A stretch of 6,195 bases of DNA from an uncultured bacterium (GTDB taxonomy: Bacteria > Actinomycetota > Coriobacteriia > Coriobacteriales > Coriobacteriaceae). This document shows, in pieces, positions 1 through 6,195 of this stretch. Below the pieces are notes generated by a model. That model saw only the letters and a list, made by a program, of their open reading frames with translations. It was not told the origin of the DNA and ran no database searches. Position 1 is the stretch's first letter. Each line of letters begins with the position of its first letter. The position numbers and the translations under genes are program-made. Location: assembly GCA_905215095.1 (NCBI GenBank), contig CAJMOL010000102.1, positions 1 through 6,195 of the forward strand. The letters run 5' to 3'.

Positions 1-1789
1 CGGAGAGGCCTGCACGGCTGCGACGCACGGCCGCGGCCACGGCGGAGACGGCCTCGTCCTGGCCGATGACGCGCTTATGCAGCTCACCCTCCAAGCCCTT
101 CAGCTTGTCGAGCTCGCCCTGCATCATCTTGGACACGGGCACGCCGGTCCAGGCGCTCACGACCTCGGCGATCTCATCGGAGGTCACCTGTTCGTTGAGG
201 CCCTCGCCGTCCTGCTGCTTTTGCGCCTCGAGCGCGGCCTCGGAATCCTGAATCTGCTGCTGCAGACCCGGAATCACGGAGTAGCGCAGCTCGGACGCAC
301 GGCCCAGGTCGCCGTTGCGCGTCGCGCGCTCCTCTTCGCTCTTGGCCTCGTCGAGCTGCCCCTTGAGCTCCTGCACGTGGTCGATGGCGTTCTTTTGGTT
401 GAGCCAGCCGGCCTTTTGCACGTTGAGCTTTTCTTGGACCTCGGCGATCTCTTGGCGCAAGGCCTCCAGACGTTCCTTGGAGGCGTCGTCGGTCTCCTTC
501 ATGAGCGCCTGCTCCTCGATCTGCAACTGGGTGAGCTGACGCGTGGTGGCGTCGATCTCGACCGGCATGCTGTCGAGTTCCATGCGCAGGCGGCTTGCGG
601 CCTCATCGACCAGGTCGATGGCCTTGTCGGGCAGGAAGCGGTCGGCGATATAGCGGTCGGAAAGGTCGGCGGCGGCCACGAGCGCGCTATCGGTGATGTG
701 TACACCGTGGAAGATCTCGTACTTCTCCTTGAGGCCACGCAGGATCGAGATGGTGTCCTCGACGGTAGGCTCGCTGACCATCACGGTCTGGAAACGACGT
801 GCGAGCGCCGCGTCCTTCTCGATGTACTTGCGATATTCGTCGAGCGTGGTCGCGCCGATCGCGTGCAGGTCACCACGGGCGAGCGCCGGCTTGAGGATGT
901 TGCCGGCATCCATGGAGCCCTCGGTGGCACCCGCGCCCACGATGGTGTGGAGCTCATCGATGAACAGGATGACCTTGCCCTCGGATTTTTGCACTTCCTT
1001 GAGCACGGCCTTCAAGCGGTCCTCGAACTCGCCGCGGTACTTGGCGCCAGCGACCAACGCGCTCATGTCGAGCTCGATGAGGTCGCGGTCGCGCAGGGTG
1101 CTCGGCACGTCGCCGGCCACGATACGCTGGGCGATGCCCTCGACGATGGCGGTCTTGCCGACGCCCGGCTCGCCGATGAGCACGGGGTTGTTCTTGGTGC
1201 GGCGGGACAGGACCTGAATGGTACGGCGGATCTCGTCGGTACGACCGATGACAGGGTCGAGCTTACCGGCGCGGGCGAGGTCGCAGATGTTGCGACCGTA
1301 CTGCTCCAGCGCCTCAAACTGCGTCTTATCCTCGGCAGACGTCACGCGGTCATCACCGCGCAGCTCCTCGTAGACCTGCTCGATGCGCTCCTTGGTGACG
1401 CCGGCGTCGCGCAGCACGCGGCCGGCCTCGCCCTTGTCCTCGGCAAGTGCCATGAGCAGATGCTCGGTCACCACAAAGCTGTCGCCCATCTTGGTGGCCT
1501 TCTTCTCGGCCTTCTCGATGACGCGGACAAGCTCGTTGGAAAGACCCATCTGCTGGCCCTCGCCGGAAACCTTGGGCGCGTGGTCGATGGCATCCTGTGT
1601 GGAGCGTGCGAGCTGAGCCGGGTCGGCACCGATGCGCTCGATGATCACGGAGATATTGCGCTCGCCGGCACCGAGCAGGGCGGACAGCAGGTGAATCGGC
1701 TCCACCGCGCCGGCCTGCGCGTCAGCGGCCGTGCTCATGGCGGTCTGCAGTGCCTCGCGCGACGTCATTGCTAGCTTATCGATTCTCAT
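1..1789 (-). CDS. clpB: ATP-dependent chaperone ClpB (Hsp100 disaggregase), N-terminal 596 residues, C-terminus beyond the window
   Basis: ClpB is a cytoplasmic AAA+ hexamer that works with DnaK/DnaJ/GrpE to pull polypeptides out of aggregates. Visible in order are the Clp N-domain repeats (about residues 1-145, opening MRIDKLAM like other ClpB), NBD1 with Walker A GEPGVGKT (206-213), a KYRG pore loop (250-253), Walker B ILFIDE (274-279) and an RRF arginine-finger motif (331-333). A long charged, coiled-coil middle domain follows (about 400-525), which separates ClpB from ClpA and ClpC. The linker TGVPVSK (548-554) and RVIGQDEAV then lead into NBD2. The sequence stops before the second Walker A, so about 270 residues are missing if the length is typical (about 860). 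The ATG at 1787-1789 was chosen because it gives the family N-terminus and has AGAGGTGA four bases upstream. There are no frameshifts or internal stops. The family call is certain; expression under heat shock is family knowledge. Confidence 0.98.
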
Positions 1790-1967: not shown

Positions 1968-2022
1968 TCTCGATCTGTAACATCTAGCAGCCATTTTTGA
2001 TCCTAGATGTTACAGATCGAGA
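1968..2022. repeat. Palindromic repeat A, unit 1 (perfect 20-bp arms)
   Basis: TCTCGATCTGTAACATCTAG (1968-1987) and its exact reverse complement (2003-2022) enclose a 15-base loop (1988-2002). This is the best-preserved of three units and can form a perfect 20-bp hairpin or cruciform. Each arm contains a TGTAACA/TGTTACA core, itself a small dyad. It lies between the clpB promoter zone and the next unit and is not part of any credible gene. Confidence 0.95.
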
Positions 2023-2047
2023 GAAAATGACCAGCGGCAACCGTTTG

Positions 2048-2102
2048 TCTCAATCTGTAACATCTACTCGGCAAATAGAGCTCCATCTGTTACAAATCGA
2101 GA
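2048..2102. repeat. Palindromic repeat A, unit 2 (degenerate arms)
   Basis: The left arm 2048-2067 (TCTCAATCTGTAACATCTAC) differs from unit 1 at two positions. The right arm 2083-2102 keeps the outer TTACAAATCGAGA but its loop-side end has diverged. The loop is again exactly 15 bases (2068-2082) and the unit again 55 bp. The start lies 80 bp after that of unit 1, with a 25-base linker (2023-2047) that resembles neither arm. Confidence 0.9.
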
Positions 2103-2128
2103 CGAACAGAAGACGCCCGAATCGAAAA

Positions 2129-2183
2129 TCTAAATCTGTAACACCAAGCCCACTTTTAGCGGCCAAGATGTTACAGATCGAGA
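2129..2183. repeat. Palindromic repeat A, unit 3 (degenerate left arm)
   Basis: The left arm 2129-2148 (TCTAAATCTGTAACACCAAG) is diverged at both ends, while the right arm 2164-2183 (CAAGATGTTACAGATCGAGA) matches unit 1 except at one base. The 15-base loop (2149-2163) and 55-bp length are conserved. The start is 81 bp after that of unit 2, with a 26-base linker. The last base lies just before the outer stem of the first 35-bp hairpin element. Confidence 0.9.
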
Positions 2184-2236: not shown

Positions 2237-2947
2237 CTACTCCTTCGCCGAACCCGTACTTCCCGATTCGACGGTCCAGGGCATCTCATCCTCGAACAGC
2301 CATGTACGGGCAGACCCACTATCGCGTGCAATCTGCGGGTCGGGCAAGCAGGTCTGTTTATAGGCATCTTGGATACACTGGCCCATAAAATCGTTGAGCT
2401 CGGCCTGGTCGCCCTCCATGACATAGGCTGCATCGCCGGCCATGATGTAAATACCCGGACCCTCATTGCCCTCGTAACCCGGATCGTACGAGACATCACA
2501 TAACTTTGCGCCGTTTGCAGTGTCCAGCTCGATGGAAGAGTGGCATCCGCCAACCATGTCGTTCGCTTTTGCCCGATAGGACGCATATCCGTACCAACGC
2601 TTAAATGTTTTGCCCTTGAGTAGCTCGGACGCCCTATCGATCAGGCTTGTATCCGTGGTATAGCGCATGGCCCCAAGCTGAATACTCGGATAATTGCTAA
2701 TACCCAGCACAGCCGGTTGCTCATCAAAATCAACGGTAATGGTCTCAGGCTTGTCGTCGCCGGTCAGAAGTTCGACAGATTGAATCACAGGCTTGACCAC
2801 CGGCTCCGTCACCGCAGCAGGCAGAAACGCCATGCCGACAGCGCCCGCGCCAACCACAGCGATCGCAAGCGCCAAAACAATCAATCCAATACGGGCAAAA
2901 CGGCTCACGGCAAAACACCCCACAATGCAAACCTTCGCCACCTGCAC
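2237..2947 (-). CDS. Membrane-anchored or exported protein of unknown function
   Basis: I do not recognise this family. Read from GTG 2947 it is 236 residues: a short basic N-terminus, a hydrophobic segment at about 19-42 (signal anchor or uncleaved signal peptide), then a mostly acidic, soluble-looking domain of about 190 residues. Four cysteines in that domain (135, 150, 191, 200) could make disulfides outside the cell. The start is uncertain. GTG 2947 has no clear Shine-Dalgarno. GTG 2923 has CGAAGG eight bases upstream. GTG 2908, which gives MSRFARIGLIVLALAIAV (223 residues), has GGGGTG seven bases upstream and the neatest N-terminus. The stop is TAG. The gene is divergent from the gene at 3143 and ends against a 35-bp hairpin repeat. 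Being a real gene is supported by its coherent anchor-plus-domain layout; function is unknown. Confidence 0.75.
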   Translation of the reverse strand: MQVAKVCIVGCFAVSRFARIGLIVLALAIAVVGAGAVGMAFLPAAVTEPVVKPVIQSVELLTGDDKPETITVDFDEQPAVLGISNYPSIQLGAMRYTTDTSLIDRASELLKGKTFKRWYGYASYRAKANDMVGGCHSSIELDTANGAKLCDVSYDPGYEGNEGPGIYIMAGDAAYVMEGDQAELNDFMGQCIQDAYKQTCLPDPQIARDSGSARTWLFEDEMPWTVESGSTGSAKE

Positions 2948-2997: not shown

Positions 2998-3032
2998 ACC
3001 ACCACAAAGGGGACAGGCACCTTTGTGGTGGT
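2998..3032. repeat. 35-bp hairpin repeat B, copy 2
   Basis: The arms ACCACCACAAAG (2998-3009) and CTTTGTGGTGGT (3021-3032) are perfectly complementary, and the loop GGGACAGGCAC is in the same orientation as copy 1. The loop GG/CC can extend the stem by two more pairs. TTTTCGACG follows on the right. A small separate stem, GGAGC (2981-2985) with GCTCC (2991-2995), sits immediately to the left. This copy lies between the starts of the two divergent small genes, about 50 bp upstream of the earliest minus-strand start and 110 bp upstream of the plus-strand start. Confidence 0.95.
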
Positions 3033-3131
3033 TTTCGACGCTAACGGTCGACCATCTCGCGCCATGAGATTAAACTTGAATTGTTCTCTGAACATATCCA
3101 TTTCTGCCTATCCTCAACAGATCTTTGTCTC

Positions 3132-3137
3132 GAGGAG
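3132..3137 (+). promoter_or_regulatory. Shine-Dalgarno of the interrupted gene at 3143
   Basis: GAGGAG lies five bases before the ATG at 3143. It supports that start over an in-frame TTG at 3125, which would add only six residues and has no such site. Confidence 0.7.
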
Positions 3138-3142
3138 CGCAT

Positions 3143-3811
3143 ATGAAGCCGTCTCATTCCACCGGTCGCAACGTCATTACCATTTTCGCCATACCCATCG
3201 TGATGCTCTTCCTTATCGTCGCCACGCCCTTTTCCCTTGGTATCGCCTCGCCCTTCGATCTTTGCGGGATGATCGACGCCGGCTCGCGTGCCACCTCGCT
3301 CTCCTTTGTCTGCCGTGGCGTGTTCTACGAATATGCAATTCCCACCGGAAGTTAGCAGTCCAAGTTACCGTTGCTCGGCAAGGTCGACGGATGCTCCCCC
3401 TATTTCTGCCTTGAACCTCAGGCGCTAAACTATCTAATCGACGACCAGCCACTCGACTCCATCACCCTCGCCTACGACTACGCACCAAACACCGATGAGC
3501 GCCACATGAACCAAGTCCTCGACAAGCTGCTTGGACAGTGCGGGCTCACCGCGGAAGCCGGTCGAACCATCTATAGCAACCGGAAATTAAAGCGAACAGA
3601 ACTCCGCCGTGTCGGAAAAATCAAAGGGCGAAACGGGGCCGCCTACTGGGATGCCTGGGCAACACGCGACAAGGGCGAATTCGGACACAGCACCTATATG
3701 GTCACTGTCTACACCAAAGACGGAATTAAGGACAATGTTGACGATTTCGCGTCATCCAAACTCGGCATCCCCAAAACAACCAAGCCCGCCAGCCCAGATG
3801 AAATCCTGTAG
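3143..3811 (+). pseudogene. Membrane-anchored protein gene of unknown function, interrupted by an in-frame TAG
   Basis: From ATG 3143 the frame encodes 70 residues, with one hydrophobic segment at about 11-36 (VITIFAIPIVMLFLIVATPF), and stops at TAG 3353-3355. The same frame then stays open for 151 more codons (QSKLPLLGKVDGC...PDEIL) to TAG 3809-3811. No frame change is needed, so this is most simply one gene of about 222 codons with a single nonsense codon. The downstream part looks like a folded, mixed-charge extracytoplasmic domain, with cysteines at codons 84, 89 and 133; cysteines 41 and 57 lie before the stop. TTG 3371 could open the second part but has no good Shine-Dalgarno. I do not recognise the family, and there is no clear similarity to the divergent neighbour beyond layout. 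Alternatives are a sequencing error, stop readthrough, or a functional 70-residue membrane peptide. Confidence 0.65.
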
Positions 3812-3865: not shown

Positions 3866-3900
3866 ACCACCACAAAGGTGCCTGTCCCCTTTGTGGCGAT
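3866..3900. repeat. 35-bp hairpin repeat B, copy 3 (inverted)
   Basis: The left arm ACCACCACAAAG (3866-3877) pairs with CTTTGTGGCGAT (3889-3900), which carries two changes from the perfect arm. The loop GTGCCTGTCCC is the reverse complement of the loop in copy 2, so this copy is inverted relative to copies 1 and 2. TTTTCGAC follows, as after copy 2. It lies 54 bases past the final stop of the interrupted gene and could double as its terminator, though the T-run is only four bases. Confidence 0.92.
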
Positions 3901-3938: not shown

Positions 3939-3994
3939 ATCAAGCAAGTCTATTTTTGGCGTCCCTCAAGGCCCAACGAGAACGCAGAAATGTA

Positions 3995-4068
3995 GCCCGG
4001 GGCTTACCCTTTCCCGAACGCGACCCTCGCGAAGCGCGTGAGCGGGCGGGAAAGGGTAAGCCCCGGGC
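3995..4068. repeat. Long perfect inverted repeat (22-bp arms, structured 30-base loop)
   Basis: The left arm 3995-4016 (begins GCCCGGGGCTTACCC) and right arm 4047-4068 are exact reverse complements over 22 bp. The 30-base loop can itself fold, with CGCG (4028-4031) pairing with CGCG (4035-4038) over an AAG loop and CCC (4024-4026) facing GGG (4044-4046). It begins 15 bases downstream of the hydratase stop. No T-run follows on either strand, so it is not an intrinsic terminator. It may be an mRNA 3'-end stabiliser or a mobile palindromic element; the sequence alone does not decide. Confidence 0.92.
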
Positions 4069-4083
4069 GGACAATTAAGTGCG

Positions 4084-6195
4084 TTACTCGGCAGCGGCCT
4101 TGAACTTGTTATAGTTGATCAGGCAGCCGGCCTTGACGATGGCACGCTCCTCTGCCGTCATATCGGCAATGTAGAGCTCAATCTGCTCGACCGCACCGTC
4201 GGCACGCACCACGTAGGCGGCGATGTCCTTCAGGTCGCCGTCGAGCGCGGCACGGATACCCGGCACAAAGACGTAGTCGCCCACCTCAAAGTTGGGCTCC
4301 GCCTCCATCTGGAAGGGCACCATGCCCCAGTTCATCACGTTGGAGCGATAGCGCTTGGTGGCGTACTCGTGGACGATGTTGGCCAGGCCGCCAATTACGC
4401 GCTGGCAGCTCGCGGCCTGCTCGCGGGCGGAACCGTCACCGGGCTTCTTGGCATAGAGCATGGAGCCGTACTCGGTCGCCTTGGCGTCGGCAGCGACACC
4501 CGCGCCGGCCAGCGCCTCAAACACGCCGGCAAGCTCGGCATCGAGCGCGGCCAAGTCGCCTGCTGCCTCGCCGGCAACGCGGCGCTTCTCCACGGCGTCG
4601 ACCTCCTTGGAACGGCCCACATAGGCCGGATCGCGGCGGCTAAGCGTAAACTCGGCCAGGCCCAGCGGGTTGGAGCGGAAGGAGCTCGTCTCGCCCGAGG
4701 GAATGAGCTCGTCGGTCGTGGTGACCGGGTCCATGATCTTGGAGCACACCTTGAGCAGGATATCGTCGCCGAGAGGCTCCATCGCGGGCCACGGCTTGAT
4801 ATTGGGACCCTCGACCAGCTCGTCGGCAGGCTCCGCCTTGCCAAAGCCCCAGTACACGCGCTTTTTGTACGGCGCGTCGTCAAAGGTGTACTCGCAGGCC
4901 TCGTCCCAGGTCTCCTCGGGCAGGTCGGTCGCCGGCGTCAGGACGCCGCCGTTGGCAGCCGTCGCCGCAATGGAGCGAGCGTCCATCAGGGCCACGGCGC
5001 TCAGCTGGCCATTGCCCGGCTTGGAACCCTCGCGGTTGGGGAAGTTGCGGGTGGTGTGGCGGATGGAGAACTCGCCGTTGGCCGGGCAGTCGCCTGCGCC
5101 GAAGCAGGGACCGCAGAAGCACTCGCGCATGATGGCACCGGCGTTGACCAGATCGTTGGCACGGCCATTCTTGAGCAGTTCGCTCAGGGCGGGCATAGAA
5201 CCCGGATAGATGCTCAGGGTGAAGGCACCGTTGCCGCAGCTCTGACCCCGCAGGATGTCGGCCGCGGCGCAGATGTTGTCGAAGGTGCCGCCGGCGCAGC
5301 CTGCGATCTCGCCCTGATCCACCCAGACAGCGCCATCGTGGTACTTGCTGTCCAGGTTCATCTTGGCACCCTTGATCTGCTTGTTGGCCTCTTCCTGTAC
5401 CAGATGCAGGATGTCCTTGGCGTTGGCCTGCAGCTCGTGGATGGTGTAGGTGTTGGAGGGGTGCATCGGCATAGCGATGGTGGATTCAATGGTGCTCAGG
5501 TCGATGTAGACGCAGCCATCGTAGTAGGCCACCTCCGCAGGCTGCAGCTTCTTGAAGTCCTGCGGACGGCCGTGGATGGTGTAGTAACGCTGGGTCTCCT
5601 CATCGGTGACCCAGATGGAGGACCAGCAGGTGGTCTCGGTGGTCATGACGTCGATGGCGTTGCGATACTCGATGGGCAGGCCGGCAATACCGGGGCCGAC
5701 GAACTCCATGACCTTGTTCTTGACATAGCCCTTCTTATAGACGGCACCGCAGATGCTCAGAGCCACGTCGTGGGGACCGATGCCCGGGCGGGGCTTGCCG
5801 GTCAGGTAGATGGCAATGACCTGCGGACGAGCGAAGTCATAGGTGCGGCCCAGAAGCTGCTTGGCCAGCTCGCCGCCGCCCTCGCCGACGGCCATCGTGC
5901 CGAGGGCGCCGTAGCGGGTGTGGGAGTCAGAGCCCAGGATCATCCGCCCGCAGCCGGACATCATCTCGCGGTTGTAGCTGTGGATGACAGCCATGTTCGG
6001 CGGAACATAGATGCCGCCGTATTTGTGGGCAGCGGACAGGGCAAACTGGTGGTCGTCCTCGTTGATGGTGCCGCCGACAGCGCAGAGGCTGTTGTGGCAG
6101 TTCGTCATGACGTAGGGCAGCGGGAACTCCGTCATGCCGGACGCGCGGGCCGTCTGGATGATGCCGACATAGGTGATGTCGTGGCTGGTCATCGA
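4084..6195 (-). CDS. Aconitase-family hydratase (4Fe-4S), N-terminus beyond the window
   Basis: Aconitase-superfamily enzymes interconvert hydroxy-di/tricarboxylic acids through a 4Fe-4S cluster, as in citrate to isocitrate. Numbering from the first in-window Met (6192), the sequence shows [12 protein letters not shown] (87-98) and three cysteines placed like the cluster ligands: C299 ([11 protein letters not shown]) and C360/C363 (CGPC). [11 protein letters not shown] substrate-site motif (381-390) follows, then a C-terminal swivel domain with [13 protein letters not shown] (615-627). This divergent form, with [18 protein letters not shown] near the start, resembles the hydratases related to E. 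coli YbhJ more than classical AcnA or AcnB, so the substrate is less certain than the fold. The Met at 6192 is probably not the start: the frame is open to the edge and relatives, as I recall them, carry some 50 more residues before MTSHDI. The stop is TAA at 4084-4086. No gene within the window shares its transcript. Confidence 0.9.

Follow-up and report, generated by a model that had tools for sequence, protein, structure and literature searches.

A tandem array of three 55-bp palindromes upstream of clpB, in an uncultured bacterium of the Coriobacteriaceae, belongs to a family of arrays that is found, within the scans we made, in Collinsella aerofaciens and its closest relatives. We propose that these arrays are fixed-geometry 55-bp duplex sites, which likely bind a dimeric protein and likely act as recombination joints for gene modules. 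We hold this explanation tentatively, at slightly less than even probability. The array was found in a window of 6,195 nucleotides, the whole stretch of DNA analysed here, and the genomes and loci of relatives were used for all comparisons beyond it. The array and its two flanking genes are arranged as follows.

2..1789, minus strand: clpB, an open reading frame cut by the window edge, with Clp_N, AAA and AAA_lid_9 domains (Pfam); it flanks one side of the putative joint.
1968..2022, no strand: unit 1, 55 bp; arms 1968-1987 and 2003-2022, 20 of 20 bases complementary.
2023..2047, no strand: linker 1, 25 bp; matches the half-site outer spacing of 37.
2048..2102, no strand: unit 2, 55 bp; arms 14 of 20 complementary (hand count).
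2103..2128, no strand: linker 2, 26 bp; matches the half-site outer spacing of 38.
2129..2183, no strand: unit 3, 55 bp; arms 15 of 20 complementary (hand count).
2237..2947, minus strand: an open reading frame of 236 aa without a Pfam match; it forms the other flank and is variably present beside the array in relatives.

The three copies follow one another at spacings of 80 and 81, and their positions, period and linkers agree exactly with the first-pass annotation, which was made from the window alone. Only unit 1 is a perfect inverted repeat. A T-run occupies the dyad centre of unit 1 (1994-1998) and of unit 3 (2154-2157), and an A-run that of unit 2 (about 2073-2075). With up to three mismatches, a 15-base core occurs five times in the window; 200 shuffles gave 0.03 occurrences on average and never as many as five. 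The array lies 179 bp before clpB, whose start codon is at 1789. On the other side, the homologue of the 236-aa gene sits between two arrays in one relative (L001), and in another (L074) the array is directly followed by the next gene, without the 236-aa gene between.

Elsewhere in the window, positions 3125-3811 carry two frames where L001 has a single 228-aa frame (4571-5257), and a long G+C-rich inverted repeat (GGGGCTTACCCTTTCCCG / CGGGAAAGGGTAAGCCCC) lies at about 3994-4068, just past the aconitase gene. A second palindromic repeat, CCACCACAAAGG...CCTTTGTGGTGG, occurs three times, at 2194-2228, about 2999-3031 and 3867-3898, and 139 half copies of it are present in 600 kb from two genomes when up to two mismatches are allowed. 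Only 12 of the 34 arrays of these genomes have it within 200 bases, and we do not regard it as part of the element.

Exact copies mark a single close clade. Among 65 genomes of the bacterial family, 22 hold 18-47 copies, one holds a single copy and 42 hold none; when 396 genomes were drawn over the class, 22 matched, 21 with 25-47 copies and one, the same single-copy genome, with one. In the 22 array genomes the start region of clpB is 94-98% identical to the window (G025 has an additional, partial second match at 93%), and the full-length matches of other genomes are at most 80% identical, with the exception of G042. A two-arm scan of the genome collection, in which the inner gap could range from 14 to 34, returned 13 loci, all in Collinsella and all of one span; every TGTAACA...TGTTACA pair listed at these loci is separated by 25 bases. 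When the arm spacing was left free between 10 and 40 in the 12 genomes found via the arms, 397 of 405 pairs were exactly 25 apart, and a reversed control pattern gave no pair.

Two complete genomes of the Collinsella aerofaciens group carry arrays at 16 and at 18 or more intergenic places. In 600 kb around these arrays, 148 of 153 exact half-sites fall inside units, and the 34 arrays with one to five units number 5, 13, 13, 2 and 1, respectively. The inner spacing of half-sites is 25 in 82 of 83 units. Their outer spacing is 37 in 30 and 38 in 20 of 51 cases (together 50), and the period between neighbouring units is 80 in 29 and 81 in 19 of 49 (together 48), with a rare period of 79 in L008, L013 and G007. 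The position table, built from 83 units with at most two mismatches (four hits with four mismatches and the unit of G041 were left out), gives a half-site of about RTCTCRATCTGTAACANNTAG, with an A/T run at the centre. RTCTC forms the outer ends of the units, and TAG stands at the inner end of most half-sites, behind two variable bases. Nearly all units have only A or T at the three central bases of the dyad; when the units are oriented by their A/T run the centre is mostly TTT, which is partly circular. The first-pass annotation had described conserved arm geometry around unrelated loops and linkers; the geometry is borne out, and the shared centre shows that the loops are not wholly unrelated. 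An arm search in relatives, which it had proposed, returned intergenic, multi-copy inverted pairs whose loop is fixed at 15 bases and whose period hardly varies, in the scans only in Collinsella. The outcomes that it had named as speaking against a family, an arm found nowhere else or a free loop length and period, did not occur.

Single units also lie in two genomes outside the clade, G041 (L062) and G042 (L076 and L099), where they are not multiplied. Their stretches are 92-97% identical to the clade, and the other matched stretches of these genomes are 71-81% identical, apart from a short one at 91%. These single units were likely transferred, as their identity to the clade suggests. We considered G042 as a natural loss of arrays within the clade and rejected this, since its clpB region is 97% identical but five joined-flank matches are only 71-77% identical; the clpB region was probably transferred as well. 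A phage origin was likewise rejected. The strict pattern has no match in viral contigs, and a looser one matches two: the first is a prophage border next to a host array, and the second, inside a phage gene, is an apparent chance match. At L097 a gene that looks like a phage integrase by eye (914-2289) lies about 120 bp past a two-unit array, and the phage-host junction lies outside the units. Copying between loci was also dismissed as the means of dispersal: with the centre set aside, the excess of similar inner sequences is weak (19 vs 12.4 and 20 vs 13.0 units), and the larger excess with the centre included arises partly because the A/T run is coupled.

We also compared 11 orthologous clpB arrays, one in the window and 10 from among the 23 loci L067-L089 collected by their flank. 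The set kept only three-unit arrays at 80 and 81, so spacing and indels lie outside the comparison and the arms are mildly selected; the other 13 loci were excluded for having fewer units or another spacing, for lacking the array, or because a stretch is masked or the contig ends. Polymorphic sites number 14 of 90 in the arms and 40 of 96 in loops and linkers (p 1e-4), and the inner TAG, polymorphic at 9 of 18 sites, is as variable as the loops. The mean pairwise difference is 0.048 in the arm and 0.296 in the loop of unit 1, and 0.040 and 0.143 in unit 2; unit 3 is reversed (0.053 and 0.022). Constraint on the arms at this locus thus holds in sum and for units 1 and 2, not for unit 3, and gene conversion between units could add to the arm conservation seen at this single locus.

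The arms do not compensate one another. At variable stem positions of the 83 units, the two sides are complementary in 0.584 of cases, vs 0.588 with partners re-dealt (z -0.25). Half-sites that are kept, an interior that mostly varies and the lack of mirrored compensation suggest that a protein binds the two half-sites together on duplex DNA. Judged by these sequence patterns, the unit is likely the duplex binding site of a dimeric protein, rather than of a factor that binds a hairpin or RNA. A geometry that is kept almost to the base pair in 22 genomes, around an interior that mostly differs, points to a strict reader.

We further compared one region of 36-67 kb in six genomes. All six share a gene backbone and have arrays in corresponding gaps, and much of the variable content stands between arrays. 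In G032, G011, G007 and G008, arrays A and B have an FHA gene and a kinase gene (named by their Pfam domains) between them; G017 is without these genes and has a single two-unit array, flanked on the left as A is and on the right as B is, and in G018 other genes adjoin array A. Arrays C and C' enclose a 364-aa gene without a Pfam match in three genomes (G018, G011 and G008) and, split over two frames, in G032; G007 and G017 lack this gene and keep a single array. A 1115-aa gene found only in G008 among the six appears to split array B. At the bgl region, modules of 5 and 7 kb lie between arrays in G017, where G018 has one array. The recurring pattern is a gene module of 1-8 kb between two arrays in some strains, and one array with the outer flanks in others. 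Gene differences away from arrays also occur (f30 in G008, f47 twice in G017 and f4 in G032).

Counting all syntenic junctions of the fetched regions, which were chosen around arrays, with unit lengths subtracted, we found a length difference of at least 300 bp between G017 and G018 in 6 of the 10 junctions that have arrays and in 8 of the 79 that do not (p 8e-4). When tight tandem gaps are removed the counts are 6 of 10 vs 8 of 45 (p 0.012), and at convergent and divergent junctions only they are 3 of 6 vs 5 of 19 (p 0.34). All genome pairs pooled give 48 of 89 junctions with arrays vs 27 of 306 without, in related genomes that are not independent. In the compared regions, genes came and went at arrays more often than at other intergenic gaps.

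The arrays themselves also lose units. Some clpB loci lack a single unit, the break falling in left arms (L075, L083) or right arms (L077), losses that short direct repeats explain, and four genomes (G020, G005, G006 and G011) have no array there despite 25-41 copies elsewhere. Unit losses in matching arms, together with modules between arrays, lead us to infer that the modules move by recombination between the repeated arms. A repeat need not be made for recombination in order to cause it. This putative role as joints lay beyond what a single window could show the earlier reader.

Other rearrangements touch the units as well. In array E of G008 (L138; also L009, 559-613) the inner 25 bp of a unit are inverted relative to G011, G007 and G032; the inverted segment is bounded by matching arms, a loop inversion at an inverted repeat. 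Insertion sequences stand inside units at L043 (8559-10055), in the third unit of L067 and at L133 (about 9,900-11,300). The in-unit insertion of G018 carries a Mutator/MULE-type transposase gene by a weak Pfam match, and the element found twice inside units of G032 presumably encodes an IS21 istA-like protein.

Several other readings of the arrays deserve weighing. They may be chromosome-organising sites for a nucleoid or division protein comparable to SlmA or Noc, with gene turnover as a by-product of repeats in tolerant gaps. In favour of this are the duplex character of the site, the presence of arrays in all 22 clade genomes and their dispersed placement: all 34 arrays of the two genomes are intergenic by our own gene calls (overlaps of up to 40 bp allowed; one array overlaps the next frame by 27 bp), and the gaps that bear them occur in every orientation. 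Of these 31 gaps, 12 are convergent, 10 tandem and 9 divergent, compared with 26, 116 and 39 among 181 other gaps of 100-1200 bp; arrays are thus depleted between co-directional genes (10/31 vs 116/181), with a p of 0.001 that is optimistic because the two genomes share many loci. On the other hand, three genomes sharing loci show no significant bias towards the origin: tested against a uniform spread, the distances from dnaA gave KS p 0.22, 0.31 and 0.36, with means of 0.36-0.41 of the half-chromosome. Nor is there a second ParB-family protein common to the array genomes, 13 of the 22 having a single ParB_N match, which speaks against a reader of the ParB/Noc type. The nucleoid- or replication-associated site of the first-pass annotation is an alternative that we consider unlikely, although the most serious one. 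Less probable again is that the arrays are multi-site operators through which one global transcription factor would control about 15-20 operons. The units are palindromic like protein sites, and several arrays lie near divergent or single promoters, as here before clpB, so that an operator, also suggested by the first-pass annotation, is possible at some loci. Against it, a place at promoters is not the rule in the gap counts above, since no promoter is expected in the 12 convergent gaps of 31, and the next gene may be tens or hundreds of bases away, or further. Scanned for consensus promoters, positions 1780-2320 returned none of any kind, a result that carries no weight either way.

Two readings with a dedicated enzyme are each improbable, somewhat more so than the operators. 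Miniature mobile elements of the REPIN/BIME kind, served by a RAYT (Y1 transposase), would fit the clustered intergenic inverted doublets, the weak excess of similar inner sequences between loci and the presence of at least one Y1_Tnp match in each of the 22 array genomes. But Y1_Tnp is matched in 53 of the 65 genomes, array-free ones included, the lone units of G041 and G042 did not multiply, and compensatory changes, common in REPINs in the available text of PMC3116915, are absent. Moreover, no paired unit lies in the fetched flanks of 16 Y1_Tnp loci (14 from seven array genomes, one from G042 and one from G060), some of which hold only lone half-site-like matches; the transposase-moved REP/BIME array and the linked RAYT envisaged by the first-pass annotation thus find no support. 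At L116, L118, L122 and L128 the Y1 transposase genes are flanked by other repeats, around CACTCATTGGGGACAGACTTACATGAGTG as judged by eye. Alternatively, the units could be integron-like sites, at which gene cassettes would enter and leave through a dedicated site-specific recombinase. Modules with an array at either end, empty sites that keep a single array and symmetric arms about an asymmetric A/T centre are consistent with this, yet the few placeable crossovers fall in the arms and not the centre, the attC core consensus is not seen, and no array-specific tyrosine recombinase appears in 13 genomes, 9 of the 22 with arrays plus 4 others; the sets that most of these share are Xer-sized and present in array-free genomes as well. 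One recombinase set with an inner stop was considered and dropped: where read, it is an XRE-like gene followed by an integrase relic, with no unit nearby. The tyrosine-integrase relic occurs in six array genomes (L158-L163), and in L160, L161 and L163 the XRE-like gene runs into it in the printed frame. Transcribed hairpins, such as terminators, mRNA stabilisers or small RNAs, are the least probable by far. Single strands of the three window units do fold well (z -2.6 to -10.6), but this comes from their symmetry alone. The loops are less complementary than chance (z -5.5), there is no Rfam match at the gathering threshold, and the lack of covariation at mirrored positions led us to reject an RNA or single-strand hairpin despite the folding energies.

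Known systems resemble the arrays in part. REPINs and BIMEs, in the available text of PMC3116915 and PMC2817692, are intergenic inverted doublets with conserved ends, a variable spacer and some tandem clusters; the Collinsella units share the intergenic, multi-copy doublet form (34 of 34 arrays intergenic; multi-copy in 22 of 65 genomes). Unlike these, they lack compensatory pairing and, at the loci read, RAYT linkage, and they keep one rigid geometry in 98% of pairs, at tens of copies per genome. A REP hairpin carries a GTAG or CGTC tag at one end according to the portion available of PMC3733652, whereas the outer ends of our units are RTCTC and TAG stands at the inner end of the half-site. 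REP elements also serve as targets of insertion sequences (PMC7771070, in the part available), and insertion sequences sit inside units in G018 and G032, although these units are not REPs by test. SlmA- and Noc-binding sites, as far as the text of PMC4117426 and PMC4331003 was available, are specific duplex sites scattered on one chromosome. The Collinsella sites are dispersed in the same way; they differ as 55-bp dyads in periodic arrays, with no significant origin bias and a putative binding protein. CRISPR loci have direct repeats, unique spacers of one length class and Cas genes; the arrays differ from them, as the first-pass annotation had rightly noted, by repeats that alternate in orientation with intervals of 15 and 25-26 bases, and also by inner sequences that recur at orthologous loci.

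Integron cassette arrays, and attC clusters without an integrase, have palindromic sites that separate gained and lost gene modules, and so far the Collinsella arrays are alike. They are, in contrast, many, small and dispersed, mostly without genes between units. They also show no covarying hairpin and, in the 13 genomes above, no array-specific tyrosine integrase, and the few breaks with a definable position fall in a left or right arm rather than at one fixed crossover point. Our searches of open-licence papers returned no description of the family, and terms for Collinsella and Coriobacteria do not occur in the available text of PMC6006769 and PMC3733652. The arrays appear to be an undescribed variety of intergenic palindromic repeat families. 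By features the REP/REPIN families are nearest, and the failed hairpin and RAYT tests set the arrays apart from them.

In the duplex-joint explanation that we prefer, a dimeric protein would hold both inverted half-sites, 25 bp apart, on duplex DNA, and recombination between the repeated arms would add or remove gene modules. The link between binding and recombination is one that we infer; the bound protein may guide the exchange or simply tolerate it, and the acting agent could be either a dedicated recombinase or general recombination. A bolder version, which we regard as unlikely, is a clade-specific docking system over the whole chromosome: rigid protein-bound dyads would be reusable joints at which modules are added, lost or exchanged without damaging the neighbours, an integron-like function on duplex-binding arrays spread over the entire chromosome.

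Repeats scattered between genes are commonly taken for remnants of mobile elements. The arrays described here sit where gene content differs between strains of a common human gut species, and the identity of their reader would tell whether they are prepared joints for gene exchange or a side effect of a chromosome-organising protein.
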